Origin: Litchfieldia alkalitelluris | GTDB taxonomy: Bacteria; Bacillota; Bacilli; Bacillales; Salisediminibacteriaceae | Direction: 5' to 3' | DNA: 64,000 nt | Assembly: GCF_002153425.1 (NCBI RefSeq) | Contig: NZ_KZ119600.1 | Location: 1,471,103-1,535,102, forward strand | Shown here: positions 5,434 to 14,982 of the stretch, piece by piece | Numbering within the stretch: position 1 is the stretch's first letter | Layout: each line of letters begins with the position of its first letter | Program-made: the position numbers and the translations under genes | The notes under the pieces: model-generated | Seen by the model: the letters and a program-made list of their open reading frames with translations, nothing else | What the model was told of the DNA's origin: nothing | The model's database searches: none

Positions 5434-6138
5434 ATGGAAACCTACCTTGGACGAAGAATGAAAATATGTTTATACTTAACTACTATATTTTTCGCTGTAG
5501 TGGTAGTTGTGGCTTGTTCTAACGAAGAAGATGCTTCAACTGGTGCAGAAGAAGTAGCAGACGAAACGGAAGTGGACGACACAGTTAATGATGAGCCAAT
5601 TGAGGTGAATGGAGACGAAGATGTGATCGATGAGAATAAAACACAAGTGGCTACGGAATCAGAAGATATAGCTGTCAGTTCAGATGACGCTGAAGAAGAT
5701 AGTAGTGTTGAGGATTTATCCACTGAAGTTAGTGCAAGTAGTTTACCAGAAACATTGGAGCTTGATGAAACACAATATCATGAAAATGGAACCATTTTAA
5801 CATTGGAAAGCATTCATTTTAACGAGGAGTATATCACGGTTAATATTACGGTTCTAAATGCATCTGGAAAGGACATCAGCATAACAGCAGCTGGAAGAAC
5901 TGGTGCTGAACTAGAAGACGATACAGGGGAGACAATGTATTATTATCAACCACCAAAGGAAAATGAGTCTTTAGATATACCAGAAGGGGATAGGATGACA
6001 GCATCACTCATCTTTGTTGGTATGCTCCCTGAAGAAGCTACAAGCCTACACCTAACATTAAATAGTATTTTTGGTGGGAGTTCTCGAATTACACATAATC
6101 CTATGTTTGAGTTTGAAGATATTAGTTTAGGTCGATAG
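5434..6138 (+). CDS. Acidic lipoprotein with DUF4352-like domain
   Basis: A 234-residue predicted lipoprotein. The N-terminus has a hydrophobic stretch ending in the lipobox VVAC, so the mature protein starts at Cys29 outside the membrane. About 80 very acidic, serine-rich residues follow (a likely flexible linker). A C-terminal ~125-residue beta-rich domain resembles DUF4352/immunoglobulin-like domains of Bacillus lipoproteins. ATG 5434 follows TAGGAG; an internal ATG at 5458 would also keep the signal. The OmpA-like lipoprotein gene starts 14 bases after its stop, so the two are probably one operon and may act together at the cell wall. The function is unknown. Confidence 0.7.
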   Translation: METYLGRRMKICLYLTTIFFAVVVVVACSNEEDASTGAEEVADETEVDDTVNDEPIEVNGDEDVIDENKTQVATESEDIAVSSDDAEEDSSVEDLSTEVSASSLPETLELDETQYHENGTILTLESIHFNEEYITVNITVLNASGKDISITAAGRTGAELEDDTGETMYYYQPPKENESLDIPEGDRMTASLIFVGMLPEEATSLHLTLNSIFGGSSRITHNPMFEFEDISLGR

Positions 6139-6152
6139 GGAAGGTGGTTGAA

Positions 6153-6932
6153 GTGAATGGAAAAGTTACGATAACCAAGATGGATAAGTCGCAATTTGGG
6201 ATAATTATAGGTTGTATAATTCTTTTGCTCTTCGTAATGACAGCTTGTATTGGACAATCGGATAGGAATAATGATCATGAAGTAGAAGGCGAAACGGTTA
6301 GCTCAATAACAGGAGAGGATAGTCTTATAGAGGGTGAAGCGGTGTCAACCGTTGATGCGGAGGATAAAGAGAACACTTCTTTACCATCGTCCACGTATAT
6401 TATTGAACCTTTTATTAGTGAAGTAGAGAGAATTATTGGTGTTCCTGTTATCACTGGGAAGATTCCGACTAGTCGGGCTGTTGTTTATGAAGGAGTTACT
6501 TCTTCGCAAGCAGAGGTTGATATGATGGAGACTTTAAGTGAATATAATGCCGTTGAGATGGATTTAGGTACATTATTAACATTACCAGGAAATATATTAT
6601 TTGATTATGATGATGATGAGCTGCGCCATGAATCGGAGGCTGTAGTAGATCAAATTGTGCAGATTATCGAAGCGACTGAAGGAACTGTTTATATAGCAGG
6701 TCATACAGATAATCACGGAACTCCAGAATACAATCAAGACCTTTCAGAGCGAAGAGCGTATTCTGTATTGGAAACCCTCGTAGAAAGGGGGATTGATGAA
6801 GGGCGTTTGATTGCAGAAGGTTTTGGTGAAAGTAAGCCCATTGCCCGGAATAATCATGCAGATGGGACTGACAACCCCGATGGACGGCAAAAAAATAGAC
6901 GAGTGGAGATAACAATTGAAGGCTTACAATAA
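6153..6932 (+). CDS. Lipoprotein with OmpA-family peptidoglycan-binding domain
   Basis: A 259-residue predicted lipoprotein: hydrophobic segment, lipobox MTAC, acidic linker, then an OmpA/MotB C-terminal domain (about residues 145-257). That domain shows ILFDYDDDEL, AGHTDNHG, LSERRA and the NRRVEI ending, all typical of the fold that binds diaminopimelate in peptidoglycan. GTG 6153 is preferred because AGGGAAGG lies 8 bases upstream; GTG 6144 is also possible. The domain is mostly known from Gram-negative envelopes and from MotB, so a lipid-anchored version in a Bacillus-type cell is uncommon. It could tie the membrane face to the wall. It probably shares a transcript with the lipoprotein gene before it. 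Confidence 0.8.
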   Translation: MNGKVTITKMDKSQFGIIIGCIILLLFVMTACIGQSDRNNDHEVEGETVSSITGEDSLIEGEAVSTVDAEDKENTSLPSSTYIIEPFISEVERIIGVPVITGKIPTSRAVVYEGVTSSQAEVDMMETLSEYNAVEMDLGTLLTLPGNILFDYDDDELRHESEAVVDQIVQIIEATEGTVYIAGHTDNHGTPEYNQDLSERRAYSVLETLVERGIDEGRLIAEGFGESKPIARNNHADGTDNPDGRQKNRRVEITIEGLQ

Positions 6933-6953: not shown

Positions 6954-7433
6954 ATGACAAAATATCGAGTTTTAACGAAACCTGCATACCGTGCAGTAGG
7001 CATGAAGTGGGAAGGAAGTTGGGCAGAAGTAAGTGGTCTGAAAGAGGTTATTCATCAAATGGAGAAACGAGTAGAGGAATTGGACGGTGCTGTTGAAGCT
7101 ACTATTCAACTCGGTCTTTCTTATCATACAAGGAAAGATGGTTTTACACATTATTCAGCATTTGAAGTAACAAAGGATCAACATGTTCCGACTGGGATGG
7201 AGGAAATTAATATTCCAGAAATGATGTACTTGGTGACGACTCATGAAAAGGGTGAAAACATAGGTCAGACCTATGTTGACATCACTAATTATTTGAAGAA
7301 TAGTGACTACCTTCCATATAGTGATGAAACAGTGCCTTATGACTTTTTGCCGATAAAACATGAGAGGTATCCTTTGGATAGGAACAAGGAAGACCCTCAT
7401 TTTGAAATTTTAATTCCTATTGTAAAAAAATAG
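6954..7433 (+). CDS. GyrI-like / AraC effector-binding domain protein
   Basis: A 159-residue protein made of one GyrI-like (SHS2 type) small-molecule-binding domain. It begins with the typical KPAYRAVGMKWEG strand and ends with FEILIPIVKK, as in effector-binding domains of AraC/MerR regulators. There is no DNA-binding domain, so it is probably a stand-alone sensor or hydrolase-like member; its ligand cannot be told. ATG 6954 follows GGAGG (6938-6942). It begins 21 bases after the OmpA-like gene and may be read from the same transcript. Confidence 0.75.
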   Translation: MTKYRVLTKPAYRAVGMKWEGSWAEVSGLKEVIHQMEKRVEELDGAVEATIQLGLSYHTRKDGFTHYSAFEVTKDQHVPTGMEEINIPEMMYLVTTHEKGENIGQTYVDITNYLKNSDYLPYSDETVPYDFLPIKHERYPLDRNKEDPHFEILIPIVKK

Positions 7434-7544
7434 GTGAAACAAACTATCATGAAAAATAATTTCTCACGATGCTAAATTCCTTTCATACTCTGTTATTTTG
7501 CAAGTAATTAATAGTTTTTGTTTCATAAGTCTGACATTAGTCCC

Positions 7545-7573
7545 TATACAATTTTTGAAATATTATGTATAAT
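7545..7573 (+). promoter_or_regulatory. Probable promoter of the cobalamin operon
   Basis: TATACA (7545-7550) and TATAAT (7568-7573) are separated by 17 bases and lie about 30 bases before the riboswitch. The -35 box matches 4 of 6 consensus bases. Confidence 0.5.
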
Positions 7574-7604
7574 GGGCTCGACATAAAAAAATACATATGA
7601 ATAA

Positions 7605-7768
7605 GAAGTAAGGTGCTAGCCTTCGTAGAATGCTAGCTTAAAAGGGAAGTTTGGTGTAATGCCAACGCGGTCCCGCCACTGTAATTGGGAGTAACCTGCA
7701 ACATGCCACTGTCTAAGATGGGAAGGCGCAGGAAACTATGACCATAAGCCAGGAGACCTGCCTACTTC
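7605..7768 (+). ncRNA. Cobalamin (B12) riboswitch
   Basis: The conserved B12 box AAGCCAGGAGACCTGCC is at 7746-7762. Closing stem P1 pairs GAAGTAAGG (7605-7613) with CCTACTTC (7761-7768). The conserved core GGGAA...GGTG (around 7643-7655), the GCCAACGCGGTCCCGCCACTG block (7671-7681 at its end) and GGAAGGCGC are all present in the known order. It binds adenosylcobalamin or a related cobalamin and normally lowers expression of the genes downstream. Here it precedes the surface-capture and ECF transporter genes. Confidence 0.95.
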
Positions 7769-7841
7769 ATTTTCACCGTACTACGAGGATAGGAGGGTGT
7801 TAAGTGGTAAAGTCTGCGATTTTTACTGTCTTAATTTCACT

Positions 7842-7865
7842 TCTCCTTCACAGGGGATTTTTTTT
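7842..7865 (+). terminator. Short hairpin plus T-run after the riboswitch
   Basis: TCTCC (7842-7846) and GGGGA (7853-7857) form a 5-bp stem with loop TTCACA, followed by eight T. It could be the intrinsic terminator of the expression platform, though the stem is short. Confidence 0.45.
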
Positions 7866-7902
7866 ATGCCAAAAAACACTATTTATTGGAGGAGAAAAGA
7901 AG

Positions 7903-9981
7903 ATGAAGAAGACAACAAGCATTTTTATGAGCATTCTATTAGTTTTTGGAATGTTGTTTGGAAGCATTACAACGGTACTTGCTGAAGCTGCAAGTTACCA
8001 AGGGGAATTGACTGTTTATAATGGCAGTGACGTTTTAGTTGAAACAGTAGATTTCACTTTTGACCAAGGAGATACTGCTTATGATGTCCTAACTAGTGAA
8101 ACACTAGAATCAGTATTAGATGTAGGAATTACCTATCATGCTGACTTTGGAGCATTTATTGATAGTTTTAACGGAGTAGAGCAATATGATGATAAATATT
8201 GGTCATTTTATGTAAATGGAATTCAAACACAAACAGGTATTACTGGTTACCCTGTTAGAGATGGTGATCACTTAACTTTCCATTTACTAGATTTCGATTC
8301 TACACAGGTAAATACAGCCACTTTATCAGCATTAAAGGATGATGAGAATCTTGTAACTATAGATTATCCTATCTCTTTTATTCCTGAGTTGGAGCCCACT
8401 GCTTTTGACTTACTATTAACTACTTTAGGGGAAGAGAATGTTGATTATACTTACTTCGATGGTGTTGGATACTTTGTTGATAGTATTCTAGGAAACACTG
8501 CAGAGGGAACTTATTTTTGGGCCTTTTATGTAGGGGAAACGTCACAAGATGTTGGAGCAAGTAGTTACGTTTTACAAAATAATGATGATATTAATTTTAA
8601 ATATGTATCTTGGGCTAATGAGGATTCTGATGATGACACTTCAACGGATGATGGTGACGGTGAAACAGAATACTCTGATGACACACATTCAACACAATTA
8701 GATAAAGCGTTGATAGATAGTTCAATAGAGTCGGCAAAAAATTATGTGATGGCCAATTACATTGGAGATTGGGAAGCTATTGCATTAAGTAAACTAGGAT
8801 ATACAGATCTAGGTGAGTATTTAGAAAGAGTAAAGCAAGAAATTCTTGAAGTAGATGGAGAGTATCGTAATATTACGGATACCGCTCGACGAAGTTTAGG
8901 AATTTTAGCTGCTGGTGGTGATCCAACAAATGTTGAAGGATATAATTTGATTGAAAAAATTTATAACGGAACAAACATTACAAGACAAGGACATGTTGGT
9001 ACAGCATTTAGCTTAATTGCATTGGATAGTGGGGATTTCAACGTGCCGGAAGATGCTGAATGGACGAGAGAGAGGATCCTCCATCATTTATTGGAAAACC
9101 AACAAAGTGACGGAGGGTGGACTTGGGCTTCTACACCACCTAGCGATCTTGATTTTACTGCGATGATTTTAACAGCACTTGCTCCATATGAGAGTGATCC
9201 AGAAGTTCAGGGGGCAATTGATGCAGCGGTAGATTTTCTTTCTGAAAGTTTTCTTGATGGAAAAATTAATAATAGCTCTACTGCTGCCCAAATGGTAATT
9301 GCATTCTCGACATTAGGACTAGATTCTCATACTTTCTATAATCAAAATGGTGATAGTTTAATAGAGTATTTATTAACTTTTCAAGATGAAGATGGAGGAT
9401 TTGGGTGGCAAGACAATGAAAGTGACGGCTTTTCTACAGACCAAGCATTCCGTGGTGTCGTAGCTTACTATCTCTTTACTGAAGGTAAATCGTCACTTTA
9501 TGCCTTCAACTTTGAAGAAGACGATGAAGAAACTGAGCAACCAGATGATCCGTCGAATGATGAGGATTCAGAAAATGGAGAAGATCCAACCAATGGAGAG
9601 GACCCAATAATTGAGGATGATCCATCAAACGGTGATGACGAAACAGAAGATCCAAAAAATGAAGAAGACCAAAAAAATGAGGTTGAAACGCCAAACAGAG
9701 AAGACACAACAGATGAAGATGAGCTAACAAATGGTGAAAAACCAACGACAGGCGGAAACTCTTCAAATGATGATAATGCTTCAAATGAGGAGAAACTATC
9801 AAATGAAGAAGCGAAAGATGCTGAAGAATCCGAAGAAGAAGCTGCTGAAAAAACAAATGAAAATGGAGACCTACTTCCAAACACAGCAACAATAAGCTAT
9901 AACCTTCTTGCTATTGGATTAGTAATCCTACTTATTGGTGCTGCTAGTTTAGTTGTTACGAGAAAGAAAAGGTTTATATAA
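7903..9981 (+). CDS. Wall-anchored transcobalamin/intrinsic-factor-like protein
   Basis: A 692-residue surface protein, probably a cobalamin capture protein. In order: a signal peptide (1-28); two DUF4430 / transcobalamin C-terminal-like beta domains (about 31-132 and 135-235), each with a W-x-F-Y-V motif (WSFYVNG, WAFYVGE); and an acidic linker. Next comes an alpha/alpha-barrel of terpene-cyclase/transcobalamin type (about 255-545) with QSDGGW and EDGGFGW turns. A long Asn-Gly-Glu-Asp-rich spacer (545-655) leads to the sortase signal LPNTA (658-662), a membrane segment and RKKR. Human intrinsic factor and transcobalamin use the same two folds to enclose B12, in the opposite order. ATG 7903 follows GGAGGAG by 8 bases. 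It is the first gene behind the B12 riboswitch. The ligand is inferred, not shown. Confidence 0.88.
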   Translation: MKKTTSIFMSILLVFGMLFGSITTVLAEAASYQGELTVYNGSDVLVETVDFTFDQGDTAYDVLTSETLESVLDVGITYHADFGAFIDSFNGVEQYDDKYWSFYVNGIQTQTGITGYPVRDGDHLTFHLLDFDSTQVNTATLSALKDDENLVTIDYPISFIPELEPTAFDLLLTTLGEENVDYTYFDGVGYFVDSILGNTAEGTYFWAFYVGETSQDVGASSYVLQNNDDINFKYVSWANEDSDDDTSTDDGDGETEYSDDTHSTQLDKALIDSSIESAKNYVMANYIGDWEAIALSKLGYTDLGEYLERVKQEILEVDGEYRNITDTARRSLGILAAGGDPTNVEGYNLIEKIYNGTNITRQGHVGTAFSLIALDSGDFNVPEDAEWTRERILHHLLENQQSDGGWTWASTPPSDLDFTAMILTALAPYESDPEVQGAIDAAVDFLSESFLDGKINNSSTAAQMVIAFSTLGLDSHTFYNQNGDSLIEYLLTFQDEDGGFGWQDNESDGFSTDQAFRGVVAYYLFTEGKSSLYAFNFEEDDEETEQPDDPSNDEDSENGEDPTNGEDPIIEDDPSNGDDETEDPKNEEDQKNEVETPNREDTTDEDELTNGEKPTTGGNSSNDDNASNEEKLSNEEAKDAEESEEEAAEKTNENGDLLPNTATISYNLLAIGLVILLIGAASLVVTRKKRFI

Positions 9982-9995
9982 AAAATATTAGTTTT

Positions 9996-10037
9996 GAGGC
10001 TGGGACATTCGTAATAGCACTTTAAAATCCCAGCCTC
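9996..10037 (+). other. Intra-operon hairpin
   Basis: GAGGCTGGGA (9996-10005) and TCCCAGCCTC (10028-10037) make a perfect 10-bp stem with a 22-base loop. There is no T-run after it. It may stabilise the 3' end of the surface-protein message or partly reduce read-through, so that the capture protein outnumbers the transporter. Confidence 0.6.
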
Positions 10038-10071
10038 ATTCAATTAGCTTAGAAGATTGGGGAGGAAAACT

Positions 10072-10947
10072 GTGATAAAAAAGAAGACTATTAAAATAGT
10101 AACGGTTTTGTTTTCCTTTTTATTTATTATGGCGGTGTCCCTATTTGGTTGTGGTACAGCAACGGATCAAGAAGCAACAATAGGACCAGTACATGATGCA
10201 GTAAAACTTGAGAAAGGTCCGTTTGAAAGAAGCCAACCTCAAGTAGCTATTGCTTTTAAAAATGAGTTAGGGGAAAAAGATGAAGGAACAGATGAACCTA
10301 ATGAAGGTACGACAGAGTCAAAAACTGAGGAAGAACAGTTAGGATCTGAGCCGCGTGATGAATCTACGTCAGTGGCTAAATCAGAACAATCGGAAACTAA
10401 CACTTCTGCTTCCTCCACAGATAAATCGAAGAAAACTGATGAGAAAGGTAGTGGAGAAGAATCTCGTACCGAATCGAAGGATACAGCAAATAACAAAAAG
10501 AGCGACTCTGCCACTTCCACTTCTTCTTCCAAATCAAATTCTTCTAAGAACAAAGAGGGGAAGAAGGAGGGGAGTAAGGGGAATGATAATGATTCAGACT
10601 CATCAAATGACGGAACTGAGCCAAAGGCTGAAACAGTTAGCATTACCGTTACAGGTCCACCAGATATTGGGTCGATACTAAGTAATACACAAATTCCTTT
10701 CGAGGGTGGGGATACGGTATTAGATATTTTATTAAAAACCTCCCTACGTGTAGATTATACAGGTCGTGGAGCAACAGCTTATGTCCAAGGGATCGATCAT
10801 ATATATGAATTCGATTACGGTGTTAATAGTGGATGGGTGGCAAGTGTAAATGGCGTTGACTTAAGTAGAAGTGCAGGCGCAACAAGTGTAAAAGCAGGGG
10901 ACTCCATAACTTGGTTATACCTTGAAGATTATACGGATGGAAGCTAA
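10072..10947 (+). CDS. Lipoprotein with transcobalamin-like DUF4430 domain
   Basis: A 291-residue predicted lipoprotein. The signal segment ends at lipobox LFGC. A very long Ser-Lys-Glu-rich linker (about 55-185) follows, and then one DUF4430-type domain (about 190-289) with EGGDTVLDILL, SGWVASVNG and the YLEDYTDG ending. It probably stands off the membrane by its linker and hands ligand from the wall-anchored protein to the ECF transporter. GTG 10072 follows GGAGG at 7 bases; TTG 10057 lies before that site. Its TAA overlaps the ATG of the T-component gene, which implies translational coupling. ECF systems do not usually need a binding protein, which makes this arrangement notable. Confidence 0.85.
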   Translation: MIKKKTIKIVTVLFSFLFIMAVSLFGCGTATDQEATIGPVHDAVKLEKGPFERSQPQVAIAFKNELGEKDEGTDEPNEGTTESKTEEEQLGSEPRDESTSVAKSEQSETNTSASSTDKSKKTDEKGSGEESRTESKDTANNKKSDSATSTSSSKSNSSKNKEGKKEGSKGNDNDSDSSNDGTEPKAETVSITVTGPPDIGSILSNTQIPFEGGDTVLDILLKTSLRVDYTGRGATAYVQGIDHIYEFDYGVNSGWVASVNGVDLSRSAGATSVKAGDSITWLYLEDYTDGS

Positions 10948-11834
10948 TGATACAACGATTTGAAGACTTCCATCCAGCATTCACTTTTTTCTACTATATG
11001 GGTGTGATCCTTCTACTTATGATGTTTCAGCACCCAACGATACTAGTTATTGCTCTGCTTATTATTTTGATGATTCATTTTGTAGAAGATCGCTTTCAAA
11101 ACTTGAAACGCTGGAGCCTCCTAATTATTTTAAGTGGCGTTCTAATTATCCTTTTGAATCCTGTTTTTAACCAGAGGGGAAGGATTGTGTTATTTATTAT
11201 CGGCGATCACTATATCACGCTAGAGGCTGTTTTGAATGGAAGTGTGACCGCACTGTCAATCATGGCGATCATCTCTATATTTGTTTCATATAACGAGGTC
11301 ATGACGCCGAATAAATTATTATTCCTATTTTCAAAGTTATTACCGCAATTTGCAGTCCTTCTCATGCTTACCCTCCGATTCATTCCACTCATGAGGCGAA
11401 GGTTGGAGGAGATTTCAGCTGTCCAGTATAGCAAAGGAATTGCGGTGACAGATGGCAATTGGAGAAAAAAAGTGAAGAACGGACTTCTATATATTCAAGT
11501 ACTTGTCACCTATTCTTTGGAAGAAGCGATTCAAACAGCTGATTCTATGAATGCTAGGGAATATGGTAAGGGTGAACGAACGACCTATGACCATTTTAGG
11601 TTCAAAAAAATAGATGCTGTAGCATTTTTATGGGTAGGATTTCTACTTATCTATTGTGTCATTGGTAGACTATACGGTTTTGGGGTGCTGACCATTTATC
11701 CTATGATGGACCCGATTCCATTGACAGGAATGGAATGGTGCCTTGCTATAGGTATGTTCATTTTTATCGCATTTCCACTAGTTGTAAAGGGAGGAGGTCG
11801 TTTGAAATGGCGTATATTAATTTCAAAAATGTAA
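10947..11834 (+). CDS. ecfT: ECF transporter T component (CbiQ/EcfT family)
   Basis: A 295-residue membrane protein with about six predicted membrane segments: the energy-coupling T component that links the ATPases to the substrate-binding S protein. The cytoplasmic coupling region carries the expected Ala-Arg-x-x-Gly motif in NAREYGKG. The start ATG overlaps the stop of the DUF4430 lipoprotein gene, and its 3' end overlaps the ATPase gene by 28 bases, so translation is tightly coupled. Being encoded with its own A and S parts makes this a group I (dedicated) ECF system. The symbol is the family name only. Confidence 0.88.
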   Translation: MIQRFEDFHPAFTFFYYMGVILLLMMFQHPTILVIALLIILMIHFVEDRFQNLKRWSLLIILSGVLIILLNPVFNQRGRIVLFIIGDHYITLEAVLNGSVTALSIMAIISIFVSYNEVMTPNKLLFLFSKLLPQFAVLLMLTLRFIPLMRRRLEEISAVQYSKGIAVTDGNWRKKVKNGLLYIQVLVTYSLEEAIQTADSMNAREYGKGERTTYDHFRFKKIDAVAFLWVGFLLIYCVIGRLYGFGVLTIYPMMDPIPLTGMEWCLAIGMFIFIAFPLVVKGGGRLKWRILISKM

Positions 11835-13531
11835 CTTTTTCTTATCCAGAAAATCCTGCTATGCCAGCATTACAAGACCTCAGCCTGCAAGTAGAGAAAG
11901 GACAGTTTGTTGTATTGTGTGGTCATTCTGGTTGTGGAAAAAGCACACTTCTACGACTGCTAAAGCAAGAAATTAAGCCACATGGGGCGATTTTAGGGGA
12001 CATTCAGTTAGAAGGCCAGAGTCTTCTTGTGGAAAATTCCTCTTCCAAAGGGATAGGCTATGTTTTTCAAGACCCAGAGAATCAAGTCGTGGCTGACGAA
12101 GTTCTTCATGAGCTTGCCTTTGGCCTGGAAAACGTAGGTCTGTCCACAAATGAAATGAGAAACCGCATCGCAGAGATGGTGAATTTTATGGGGGCGGAAA
12201 ATCTCCTTCACCGGAAAACACACACGTTGTCAGGTGGACAAAAACAGCAGTTGAACTTAGCTTCCGTCCTCCTCATGCAACCTAATGTCCTTTTGCTTGA
12301 TGAACCAACTGCGCAGCTTGATCCAGTCAGTGCGCGGGAGTTTCTCGATATGATCGTCCGCCTAAATGGAGAGTTCGGACTCACTGTAATCATGGCAGAG
12401 CATCGTCTCGAGGAGGTGTTGGCAGTTGCTGATAAGATTGTCATGATGGAAAAGGGGCAAATAAGATTGGAGGGACGCCCGAAGGAAATATTGCCAAAAG
12501 TGTGGGATTCATCAGAGAAACCGTATGTACCCACTATCCCGTCATTTTACTTGAAGGTGTTCGATCAGGGACAAGAGGGTTGCGGTGTTGGAGCAAGTTC
12601 AGAAGTCCCCCTTACAGTTAAGGAAGGGCGCAGTTGGCTCCGTGAACGGAGGGACGGTTCTCCCGTTTACGGATATGAATCAACTGAATCAACCCAACTT
12701 ATATCCGAGCATAAACTAGATAAGCCAGAACTTCCCCCCTCGGAACCAATCATTGAAGTGAAGAATCTATTTTTTCAATATGACGCTAGAAAGCCGAGTG
12801 AGGCCATCTTAAAGGGTTTGAGTTTAAACCTTCATAAAGGAGAATTTTACACTCTTTTAGGAGGCAATGGATCTGGTAAATCAACATTAATGAAACTGAT
12901 TTGTGGAGTGTCCAAGCCTCAGCGGGGAAAAGTTATCATTAACAAAAGAGACTTGAAACGTTGGGGCCGTCAAGAGCTTGCAAAAATGATTGGCTATTTG
13001 CCACAAAATCCAAAATTATATTTTATTCAAGATACGGTTGGAAAAGAGCTACAGGATACCCTTGAGCAGTGGGGATTGGCAACGGAGTCTGGGGAGAAAA
13101 GGACTTCTGATTTGTTAAATTCACTTGGAATACCTCATCTAACAAATAAGCACCCTTATGATTTAAGTGGTGGAGAGATTCAAAAGGTAGCTCTTGCTTG
13201 TCTTCTTGTACGTCAGCCTCAAATTCTTTTACTAGATGAACCAACGAAAGGATTAGACCCAGTTTCTAAGGGGCAACTGGCGGATATTCTATTGGAGCTA
13301 CAGTCTCAAGGATTGACAATTATGATGACGTCCCATGATGTGGAGTTTGCAGCAAAGTATGCAGACCGTTGTGGGATGATGTTCGAAGGGCGGATAACAT
13401 CAGAATCATCTCCGGCTTCATTTTTTAAAGGAAATTTCTTTTACACAACGATGATACAACGATTGTTCCGTGGTTATACGGAGGATGTAGTCACAATGGA
13501 GGAGGCAATCCGAATATGGGGGGCGCGGTAG
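11807..13531 (+). CDS. ecfA: ECF transporter fused ATPase (A-A')
   Basis: A 574-residue protein with two ABC ATPase domains in tandem, doing the work of the usual EcfA/EcfA' pair. Domain 1 has Walker A GHSGCGKST, signature LSGGQ and Walker B LLLDEPT. Domain 2 (from about 325) has GGNGSGKST, LSGGE and LLLDEPT. ATG 11807 follows GGGAGGAGG. The linker between the domains (about residues 250-320) contains a family A palindrome (12641-12671) read in frame as coding sequence, so the linker has tolerated a repeat insertion. The 3' end overlaps the S-component gene. Confidence 0.92.
   Translation: MAYINFKNVTFSYPENPAMPALQDLSLQVEKGQFVVLCGHSGCGKSTLLRLLKQEIKPHGAILGDIQLEGQSLLVENSSSKGIGYVFQDPENQVVADEVLHELAFGLENVGLSTNEMRNRIAEMVNFMGAENLLHRKTHTLSGGQKQQLNLASVLLMQPNVLLLDEPTAQLDPVSAREFLDMIVRLNGEFGLTVIMAEHRLEEVLAVADKIVMMEKGQIRLEGRPKEILPKVWDSSEKPYVPTIPSFYLKVFDQGQEGCGVGASSEVPLTVKEGRSWLRERRDGSPVYGYESTESTQLISEHKLDKPELPPSEPIIEVKNLFFQYDARKPSEAILKGLSLNLHKGEFYTLLGGNGSGKSTLMKLICGVSKPQRGKVIINKRDLKRWGRQELAKMIGYLPQNPKLYFIQDTVGKELQDTLEQWGLATESGEKRTSDLLNSLGIPHLTNKHPYDLSGGEIQKVALACLLVRQPQILLLDEPTKGLDPVSKGQLADILLELQSQGLTIMMTSHDVEFAAKYADRCGMMFEGRITSESSPASFFKGNFFYTTMIQRLFRGYTEDVVTMEEAIRIWGAR
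12641..12671 (+). repeat. REP-like palindrome inside a coding sequence
   Basis: CGTGAACGG and CCGTTTACG are inverted around AGGGACGGTTCTC. The core GGGACGGTTC is identical to arms of the intergenic family A repeats at 56-107, 1754-1794 and 5166-5216. The frame stays open through it, adding residues such as RRDGSPVYG to the linker of the ECF ATPase. Confidence 0.65.
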
Positions 13532-14244
13532 GGAAGAGTTTGAAAATGAGAGTACTTCAGTTACTGCTGCTCCTCGGTGTTGTGGGGATCCTAGCTAGCA
13601 CCCTTGTTTGGAGCGAGCATTATTTGTGGTTGAGCTTTGGTATAGTCATCTTAGCAATCATTATATTTTTGTTACACTTCGAACGTAGAAAGATTGTTGC
13701 CCGGGAAATCGTACTCCTTGCAGTGATGGCAGCCATTGCATCAGTAAGCCGCATCCCCTTTGCAGCTATTCCAAGCGTTCAGCCCACCACCTTCGTTATT
13801 ATGATGGCAGGCTTTGTTTTTGGAAAAGAGAGTGGATTTATTATAGGCGTTGTATCTGCCCTCGCCTCCAACATGATTTTAGGTCAAGGTCCATGGACAC
13901 CGTGGCAGATGATTGCCTGGGGGCTCGTTGGGTTTTCTGCAGGACTCCTGAGAAATTGGAGTGTAATGAAGGGGACTATTGGAAAAGTTGGCTTTGCAAT
14001 CATTTGGGGATTTCTATTTGGTTGGATCATGAATATTTGGGGGCTATTGGCCCTAACGGGTGGAGGAACAGGTGAGGGAGGATTACTTGATCCGCAAGTC
14101 CTCATCCCATACTTTATCAGTAGTGCGTTGTTTGATTCCATGCATGCAGTTTCCAATGTGGTCTTTTTATTATTATTTGGTGGTGTGTGGGTGAAATTAT
14201 TAGAGCGGTTTAAGATGAAGTACGGCTTGCTTGAATACAAGTAA
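13516..14244 (+). CDS. ECF transporter S component, probably cobalamin-specific
   Basis: A 242-residue membrane protein with about seven or eight hydrophobic segments. The block SRIPFAAIPSVQPTT, then VFGKESGF and GQGPWTPWQM, is typical of ECF S components linked to B12 riboswitches in Firmicutes. It would bind the vitamin in the membrane and toggle with the T component. ATG 13516 follows GGAGGAGG (13498-13505) and overlaps the ATPase gene by 16 bases. The first ~60 residues form two extra hydrophobic segments before the conserved core. Cobalamin specificity rests on the riboswitch and the neighbouring transcobalamin-like proteins; a precursor such as cobinamide is also possible. Confidence 0.83.
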   Translation: MGGAVGKSLKMRVLQLLLLLGVVGILASTLVWSEHYLWLSFGIVILAIIIFLLHFERRKIVAREIVLLAVMAAIASVSRIPFAAIPSVQPTTFVIMMAGFVFGKESGFIIGVVSALASNMILGQGPWTPWQMIAWGLVGFSAGLLRNWSVMKGTIGKVGFAIIWGFLFGWIMNIWGLLALTGGGTGEGGLLDPQVLIPYFISSALFDSMHAVSNVVFLLLFGGVWVKLLERFKMKYGLLEYK

Positions 14245-14412
14245 CAACTTTTTAAAGTAGAAGTTATGTAGCCATGAAACTTTCTTCACTTCCTCTTCGA
14301 AAAGTCAACATTAGTTCATTATGTTTGTTGTGATTCCTTGACCTAACCATGTATGTAAATGTATATAAATGGAGAATTTAGTAATAGGAATTATAGAAAG
14401 GATGGACTAAGA

Positions 14413-14982
14413 TTGAAGAAATTTTCTCTTTCTATCTCTATTACAGCTTTGATTCTCTTTCCTTTGATTGGCTGTGGAGACAATATGGATAATAATGACG
14501 AAATGGAAGGTCAAAACTTTGGGGAGCATGGCTTTATGGAAACAGAGGATGGCGACCTTAACGCCGGCACTAATCCAGGTGCTAACCTAAATTCAAAGAA
14601 TAGGACTAAGACTGAATCCTATCATGGGGCTACATACAATACTAATGACGGAAAGCTAGTTCAGCAGATTGTTGATCAAGTAGAAGGGATAGACGGTGTT
14701 AGAGAAGCCCATGTTGTCCTAAACGAAGATGACCTTATTATTGCTGTAGAAGCTACAAGGAACATCACGGAAGTAAGATGGGAAGTGGAACAGTATACGA
14801 ATAATTTATCAAATGACAAGAATGTGATAGTAGTAACGAATGAGGAAGTGGTTGGACAAGTTCGGGCCCTTGATAATGAATTACGTCAGAGGGAACAACA
14901 TGATGGTTTCGATGATAATATTGATCGTATGATTGATGATATTGATCGTGCTGTACGAGAATCTCTGGATAGAAATCAATAA
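14413..14982 (+). CDS. YhcN/YlaJ-type sporulation lipoprotein
   Basis: A 189-residue predicted lipoprotein with lipobox LIGC. The C-terminal ~110 residues match the YhcN/YlaJ domain: VQQIVDQVEGIDGVREAHVV, the IAVEA strand, then a VEQYTNNLSNDKNVIVVTN-type segment. Relatives sit in the forespore or inner spore membrane and affect germination or outgrowth. The mature N-terminus is Asn/Asp/Gly-rich. I chose TTG 14413, which follows AAAGGA; the longer reading from ATG 14359 would put 18 charged residues before the signal. The gene stands alone with a terminator downstream. Confidence 0.8.
   Translation: MKKFSLSISITALILFPLIGCGDNMDNNDEMEGQNFGEHGFMETEDGDLNAGTNPGANLNSKNRTKTESYHGATYNTNDGKLVQQIVDQVEGIDGVREAHVVLNEDDLIIAVEATRNITEVRWEVEQYTNNLSNDKNVIVVTNEEVVGQVRALDNELRQREQHDGFDDNIDRMIDDIDRAVRESLDRNQ

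Follow-up and report, generated by a model that had tools for sequence, protein, structure and literature searches.

Does the cobalamin riboswitch at the head of a five-gene cluster in Litchfieldia alkalitelluris govern a system that catches vitamin B12 at the cell surface and imports it through an energy-coupling factor (ECF) transporter? The cluster lies in a 64,000-nucleotide (nt) stretch of contig NZ_KZ119600.1 (hereafter the window, in whose numbering positions are given) and encodes a wall-anchored protein, a lipoprotein, and the EcfT, fused EcfA-EcfA' and S parts of the transporter. We conclude that it is very probably a B12-repressed operon by which a bacterium that requires corrinoids takes them up, combining surface B12 capture with ECF import. 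The pairing of B12 capture with ECF import is well supported; that both surface proteins bind B12, that they act in the order of a relay and that the riboswitch turns the operon OFF we infer from homology and linkage.

The riboswitch-led operon and its conservation

Riboswitches of the RF00174 class sense cobalamins. The one in the window matches the covariance model from end to end (model positions 1–189; 119 bits, gathering score 31.5; E 3e-29), so the cobalamin riboswitch reported in the initial annotation stands, its start now lying 12 nt further upstream. It is followed by five co-directional genes. All five had been called tightly spaced or overlapping; this holds for genes 2–5, which touch or overlap (by 1 nt between genes 2 and 3, 28 nt between genes 3 and 4, and 16 nt between genes 4 and 5), but not for genes 1 and 2, which are separated by 90 nt holding an 11-bp hairpin.

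The proposed gene set was recovered with Pfam and NCBIfam models. Gene 1 carries the Pfam domain DUF4430 (PF14478) in two stretches (71.2 bits, cut-off 23.8) and ends in an LPxTATN sorting signal (NF058670, 41.4 bits against a cut-off of 32). Its ATG at 7903 is preceded by GGAGGAG and followed by a signal-peptide-like stretch (both seen by eye), and the GTG at 7804 that opens a longer open reading frame (ORF) is probably not the real start. The transporter had been described as dedicated to this operon, and its parts bear this out. Gene 3 is similar to the EcfT of PDB entry 5d3m (E 1.3e-5), the same sequence being present in 6FNP, and gene 4 scores 387 bits with TIGR04520 (cut-off 315). The best PDB match of gene 5 is 6fnp_A (E 2.1e-11, residues 62–237); the sole other sequence up to E 10 was unrelated (E 1.5). 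CbrTUV systems are said to have been recognized as cobalamin ECF transporters by Rodionov in 2009. From its chain length and the title of the paper, chain A of 6FNP appears to be CbrT. The entry is described as the ECF-CbrT of Lactobacillus delbrueckii, which imports cobalamin and cobinamide (PMC5997447).

The S component of L. alkalitelluris is most like those of Evansella (71–74% identity). In five related loci (L084, L093, L094, L097 and L101; L numbers are our labels for loci) ORFs of 829–891 amino acids (aa) have matches to the fused ATPase as well as to the S component and represent A-A'-S fusions.

A survey for the same gene set had been suggested as a check, and we made it by way of the S component. 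We kept 80 of 109 relatives, mainly from Bacillaceae, Paenibacillaceae and Clostridia, together with an actinobacterial metagenome-assembled genome (MAG; L096) and a MAG titled Deltaproteobacteria (L068). The window included, this gave 81 sources, from which the 16 with less than 5 kb before S were left out. Among the remaining 65, EcfT and EcfA were found in every source, DUF4430 in 63, the B12 riboswitch in 57 and an alpha/alpha barrel like that of gene 1 in 55; over all 81, DUF4430 occurred in 68 and the riboswitch in 57. The riboswitch model (R1) was built from 20 of 33 riboswitch stretches, and by an automatic rule the riboswitch lay no more than 800 nt upstream of the operon's first gene in 48 of the 57. 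Rfam confirmed a B12 riboswitch in all eight positive loci tested (L066, L069, L083, L087, L091, L092, L093 and L100), assigning that of L091 to the adenosylcobalamin (AdoCbl) family, and found none in the six negatives tested (L049, L065, L073, L094, L096 and L097). Because the same set recurs in related loci, it is not a chance arrangement.

The operon of Tepidibacter thalassicus (L073) has a thiamine pyrophosphate riboswitch upstream (positions 5716–5828 of that locus), in the place taken by B12 riboswitches in its relative L069.

Co-occurrence was also seen at the level of genomes. Among 35 genomes from the family of the window, taken without regard to S, six have DUF4430 and precisely these six have S; they all belong to one genus and do not count as six independent events. 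The whole genome of L. alkalitelluris has three DUF4430 matches, all in the operon. The idea that DUF4430 is a surface module of general use with no relation to B12 was mostly rejected on linkage and co-occurrence, one locus of a congener (L146, see below) standing apart. A phage search returned three unannotated faecal records (37–40% identity) and led nowhere.

The features are collected in Table 1. Promoter-like consensus sites number 7 in the region as a whole, below the shuffle mean of 9.6. The terminator-like site before gene 1 is the single one observed against 1.5 expected in shuffles of 7400–10200, and the RNA fold of 7740–7875, after the aptamer, is no better than that of shuffles; the stem could perhaps act as a transcriptional OFF switch. 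Neighbouring genes encode a lipoprotein whose C-terminal end looks, by eye, like an OmpA-type peptidoglycan-binding domain (6144–6932) and a YhcN/YlaJ sporulation lipoprotein (14359–14982).

Table 1. Features of the riboswitch-led operon, in window coordinates.
Feature	Position	Strand	Basis
Promoter-like site, TATACA-17-TATAAT	7545..7573	+	consensus match only, 10/12
Cobalamin riboswitch aptamer, RF00174	7593..7779	+	covariance model, full length
Terminator-like stem then eight T, between aptamer and gene 1	7842..7857	+	weak
Gene 1, wall-anchored transcobalamin-like protein, 692 aa	7903..9981	+	DUF4430 x2, sorting signal, alpha/alpha barrel
DUF4430 domain 1 of gene 1	8035..8301	+	PF14478 and own profile
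DUF4430 domain 2 of gene 1	8368..8622	+	PF14478 and own profile
Alpha/alpha barrel (toroid) of gene 1, residues 258-526	8674..9480	+	alignment and model
LPNTA sortase sorting signal of gene 1, residues 658-689	9874..9969	+	NF058670
Hairpin with perfect 11-bp arms, between genes 1 and 2	9995..10038	+	shuffle test
Gene 2, DUF4430 lipoprotein, 291 aa (DUF4430 ~10708-10920)	10072..10947	+	PF14478, 50.1 bits; lipobox LFGC by eye
Gene 3, EcfT (CbrV-like)	10947..11834	+	PF02361 CbiQ/EcfT, 52.5 bits
Gene 4, fused EcfA-EcfA' ATPase (CbrU-like), 574 aa	11807..13531	+	two ABC_tran stretches
Gene 5, ECF S component, CbrT homologue	13516..14244	+	PF07155/PF12822; 6fnp_A

Kinship with animal B12 carriers

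DUF4430 had been linked to the beta domain of transcobalamin and intrinsic factor, and both profile and structure searches recovered this relationship. A profile (A1) built from 56 of the 155 domain stretches listed matched, in PDB, transcobalamin-2 (5no0, E 2.1e-5), transcobalamin-1 (4kki, 5.7e-5) and intrinsic factor (3kq4, 5.1e-4); animal carriers occupied the first seven rows, the next being a Ruminococcus gnavus structure (3U7Z, 0.0012). With a model of gene 1, Foldseek returned transcobalamin chains at ranks 1–3. The isolated beta domain 5no0 was matched with a template modelling (TM) score of 0.83 of the target and a root-mean-square deviation (rmsd) of 2.1 over 101 columns, and 5np4, the beta domain alone with cyanocobalamin bound, with a TM score of 0.82. 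The latter structure thus provides a precedent for a lone DUF4430-type domain binding B12. A phmmer search with the gene 2 lipoprotein gave no matches in PDB.

The alpha/alpha barrel of gene 1, which the initial annotation had merely implied, is present. It aligns with 34 other barrels from related operons, and in the gene 1 model, based on an alignment of 12 sequences (mean predicted local distance difference test (pLDDT) 82.5), it is predicted as alpha/alpha; the Pfam families SQHop and Prenyltrans gave sub-threshold matches only. VIA aligned the barrel model with human intrinsic factor (2PMV) at Z 17.5 over 221 residues (rmsd 3.3), but terpene cyclases scored higher (Z 21). Over two such searches intrinsic factor had Z 17.5–18.8, and transcobalamin was absent among the best 50 matches listed in each.

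Pfam Cobalamin_bind (PF01122) matched 6 of the 35 barrels at E≤1 (best 8.3e-6), the one of the window not being among them. The barrel was also considered as stand-alone evidence for B12 and rejected in this role, its profiles matching terpene cyclases, alpha-2-macroglobulin and prenyltransferases.

The domain order of the animal proteins, barrel then DUF4430, was found in 18 aligned relatives, mostly Paenibacillaceae and mainly Paenibacillus, and all 18 have an S-layer-homology-like pattern by a crude search. One of these barrel-DUF4430 proteins, from Aneurinibacillus (L077), was modelled (pLDDT 80.3). Foldseek placed transcobalamin, intrinsic factor or haptocorrin at ranks 1–15 for this model, over 450–477 columns and with E from 2e-9 to 8.7e-8.

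A different arrangement was found in a congener (genome G015; locus L145, C1:3048000-3060000). Its wall protein consists of a barrel and an LPDTA signal and has no DUF4430 match, and DUF4430 occurs on the lipoprotein only. Judged by this domain content, the locus appears to hold a transcobalamin split across two proteins.

Probable B12 need, proposed route and alternatives

The genome of L. alkalitelluris encodes MetH and MeaB, and CbiJ and CobS, the sole two biosynthetic families searched for, were not found in it; therefore the cell probably depends on an external supply of complete cobamides, and it probably has two importers. A second B12 riboswitch (L008, G000 C1:4132000-4144000) lies upstream of genes that by eye are nrdE- and nrdF-like, for a B12-independent ribonucleotide reductase. 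A third (L007, G000 C1:2043000-2053000) leads BtuC-like, BtuD-like and PduO-type adenosyltransferase genes. About 190 C-terminal aa of the BtuD-like gene product are without a Pfam match at E≤1e-4. There is no BtuF gene beside the BtuC- and BtuD-like genes, and a BtuF-like protein is encoded elsewhere in the genome; the BtuC, BtuD and BtuF models of NCBIfam all score below their cut-offs in this species.

In the route that we propose, scarce cobalamin would leave the riboswitch free and the operon would be read. The wall-anchored protein, with its barrel and two transcobalamin-type beta-grasp domains, would catch cobalamin outside. The single beta-grasp domain of the lipoprotein might then take, hold, guide or present it at the membrane, where import would fall to the CbrT-like S component and the EcfT/EcfAA' module that belongs to it. 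Everything beyond the position of the operon behind a B12 riboswitch is deduced from homology and linkage.

A more specific version, which we put forward tentatively as possible, is a two-stage relay in which the wall transcobalamin homologue and the lipoprotein, whose beta domain would be of a distinct type, would jointly clamp cobalamin, as a carrier split like that of G015, and deliver it to S, the ECF transporter would depend on these external binders, and the hairpin between genes 1 and 2 would favour the wall protein over the pump. The stem score of this hairpin was reached by none of 200 shuffles. Among gaps of 40–250 nt between wall protein and lipoprotein genes, a strong stem was found at p≤0.05 in 24 of 29 loci and at p≤0.01 in 14 of 29, with p-values uncorrected for number and loci that are related. 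The stem sequences vary between groups of loci. Such a hairpin may give more wall protein than transporter. In the usual view of ECF transporters, the S component alone binds the substrate. Should the relay prove true, anchored binders can supply an ECF transporter, and the intrinsic factor and transcobalamin of humans have functional equivalents in bacteria, which was proposed in 2007.

The main alternative, which we find rather unlikely, is that the ECF transporter imports B12 alone and that the surface proteins retain or store corrinoid, or compete with neighbours for it, with no hand-off to S. Purified and reconstituted ECF-CbrT of L. delbrueckii is reported to take up B12 in proteoliposomes (PMC5997447), and the barrel was not recognised in 10 of the 65 sources. 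Gene order argues the other way: in 58 of the 65 sources a small DUF4430 gene ends no more than 150 nt from EcfT. So does a tree of 156 DUF4430 domains (built on 88 columns, with weak support at many forks; the broken copy L082 and domains below 40 bits excluded), in which the wall-type and lipoprotein-type labels, assigned by us from size and nearness to EcfT and bound to cluster to some degree by the kinship of the rows, change 6 times against about 49 when shuffled. The two types are not two clean clades, since the last DUF4430 of Paenibacillaceae wall proteins falls among the lipoprotein types. The separation of the domains suggests distinct roles for the two proteins.

It is improbable that the substrate is another corrinoid or precursor (cobinamide, cobyrinate diamide or a cobamide without 5,6-dimethylbenzimidazole) rather than cobalamin. 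CobS, needed for completing cobinamide by the usual route, was not found in the genome, and the riboswitch class is one that senses cobalamins. In favour of such a substrate, a BtuCD-like operon is already present in the genome, cbrUVT is listed for cobyrinate diamide uptake (PMC8123684), and relatives of BtuFCD and CbrT have been suggested to import alternative vitamers (PMC6593275).

Scarcely credible is a role of the barrel as a secreted class II terpene-cyclase- or prenyltransferase-like enzyme in an operon for a lipid-like ligand: taken alone, the barrel does find squalene-hopene cyclases and drimenyl diphosphate synthases as its best matches in sequence and structure, and the Asp of its SDxDxTAM motif, at what we take to be the position of the catalytic DXDD of cyclases, is invariant in 35 of 35 rows, but DXDD itself is absent (DLDF in the window; Asp follows the invariant Asp in 1 of 35 rows, as EPDD), the protein is secreted, wall-anchored, under a B12 riboswitch and fused to transcobalamin-type domains, and the transcobalamin toroid shares the broad fold, as the match to intrinsic factor indicates.

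Several observations weigh against the reading of the locus as an operon for B12 capture and ECF import. Eight of the 65 sources are without a riboswitch (3 of the 8 are cut at the 5' end), two lack DUF4430 (L065 and L097) and seven have no small DUF4430 gene abutting EcfT. B12 riboswitches are common as such, occurring in 376 of 397 genomes of the order, so that linkage, rather than mere riboswitch presence, is what counts. The congener G015 has a second DUF4430 lipoprotein (L146) away from any ECF gene, and the BtuC/BtuD-like operon together with the BtuF-like protein may make the DUF4430/ECF operon redundant or leave it to another corrinoid. On the structural side, the domain order of gene 1 is the reverse of that in animal carriers and its barrel has no PF01122 match. 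The barrel profile (A2, built from 35 of the 48 barrels listed) best matched squalene-hopene cyclases, with no transcobalamin among 58 PDB matches, and a two-domain profile (A4) had none among 31, so that kinship of the whole two-domain protein is visible by fold only. The sequence of the barrel alone does not appear to identify a B12 site. For the L077 model both domains align with the animal carriers but the overall fit is poor (rmsd 10.7–13.3, TM 0.40–0.44 of the query); hence the mutual placing of its domains would either differ from that in the animal carriers or be wrong in the model.

The L146 lipoprotein itself (G015 C1:527000-533000, positions 2180–2632) has 150 aa and a DUF4430 match of 80 bits. 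It lies beside an lspA-like gene (by eye), and ECF genes were not seen in the 6-kb stretch that holds it.

Earlier descriptions and known systems

The initial annotation had regarded the locus as a new kind of vitamin uptake pathway, which is not borne out. Burroughs, Balaji, Iyer and Aravind (2007; PMC1796856) had defined a transcobalamin-like clade in low-GC Gram-positives, with the alpha/alpha toroid fused at either end and with Gram-positive wall anchors. They described operons with a second extracellular paralogue and with CbiO and CbiQ, proposed B12 scavenging for them, noted that key B12 synthesis enzymes are usually lacking in their carriers, and proposed a transfer of the two-domain form to animals. 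Given this prior description, we rejected the idea of a categorically new pathway. Neither "riboswitch" nor "S component" occurs in the main text of that study, and the passages considered here report no biochemistry on the transcobalamin-like wall proteins.

Other sources touch the same components. A table in PMC9963975 has the entry "Additional lipoprotein component of putative cobalamin ECF transporter", and the text there places a DUF4430 protein, LGG_02295, beside rtpR; we read the two as probably the same protein. CbrUVT is among the B12 transporters listed in two further papers (PMC6593275, PMC8123684). Within open-licence PubMed Central papers we found no experiments on the surface proteins, only prediction and annotations. 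The locus is a well-documented example of the kind predicted in 2007, and what the present analysis adds is the link to a riboswitch and to CbrT, the separation of two kinds of beta domain, the split carrier and the intercistronic hairpin.

With the system described in 2007 the operon shares the transcobalamin-type beta-grasp domain, the toroid, the anchor, the second paralogue and the CbiO/CbiQ genes (PMC1796856). With ECF-CbrT, for which B12 is a proven substrate, it shares an S component homologous to CbrT and the EcfT and EcfA parts; it differs in having its own T and fused A-A' genes, an S component that is about 50 aa longer at its N-terminus, and two DUF4430 proteins at the surface. BtuFCD, too, imports B12, is controlled by a B12 riboswitch and uses an external binding protein, but it is made up of different protein families, and the BtuCD-like operon of L. 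alkalitelluris is separate in the same genome. Transcobalamin and intrinsic factor, finally, combine barrel and beta domain in one chain as gene 1 does. In animal transcobalamin, haptocorrin and intrinsic factor the barrel precedes the beta domain, whereas gene 1 has the reverse order and two beta domains, and the bacterial proteins are wall-anchored or, in 18 relatives, carry S-layer-homology-like ends.

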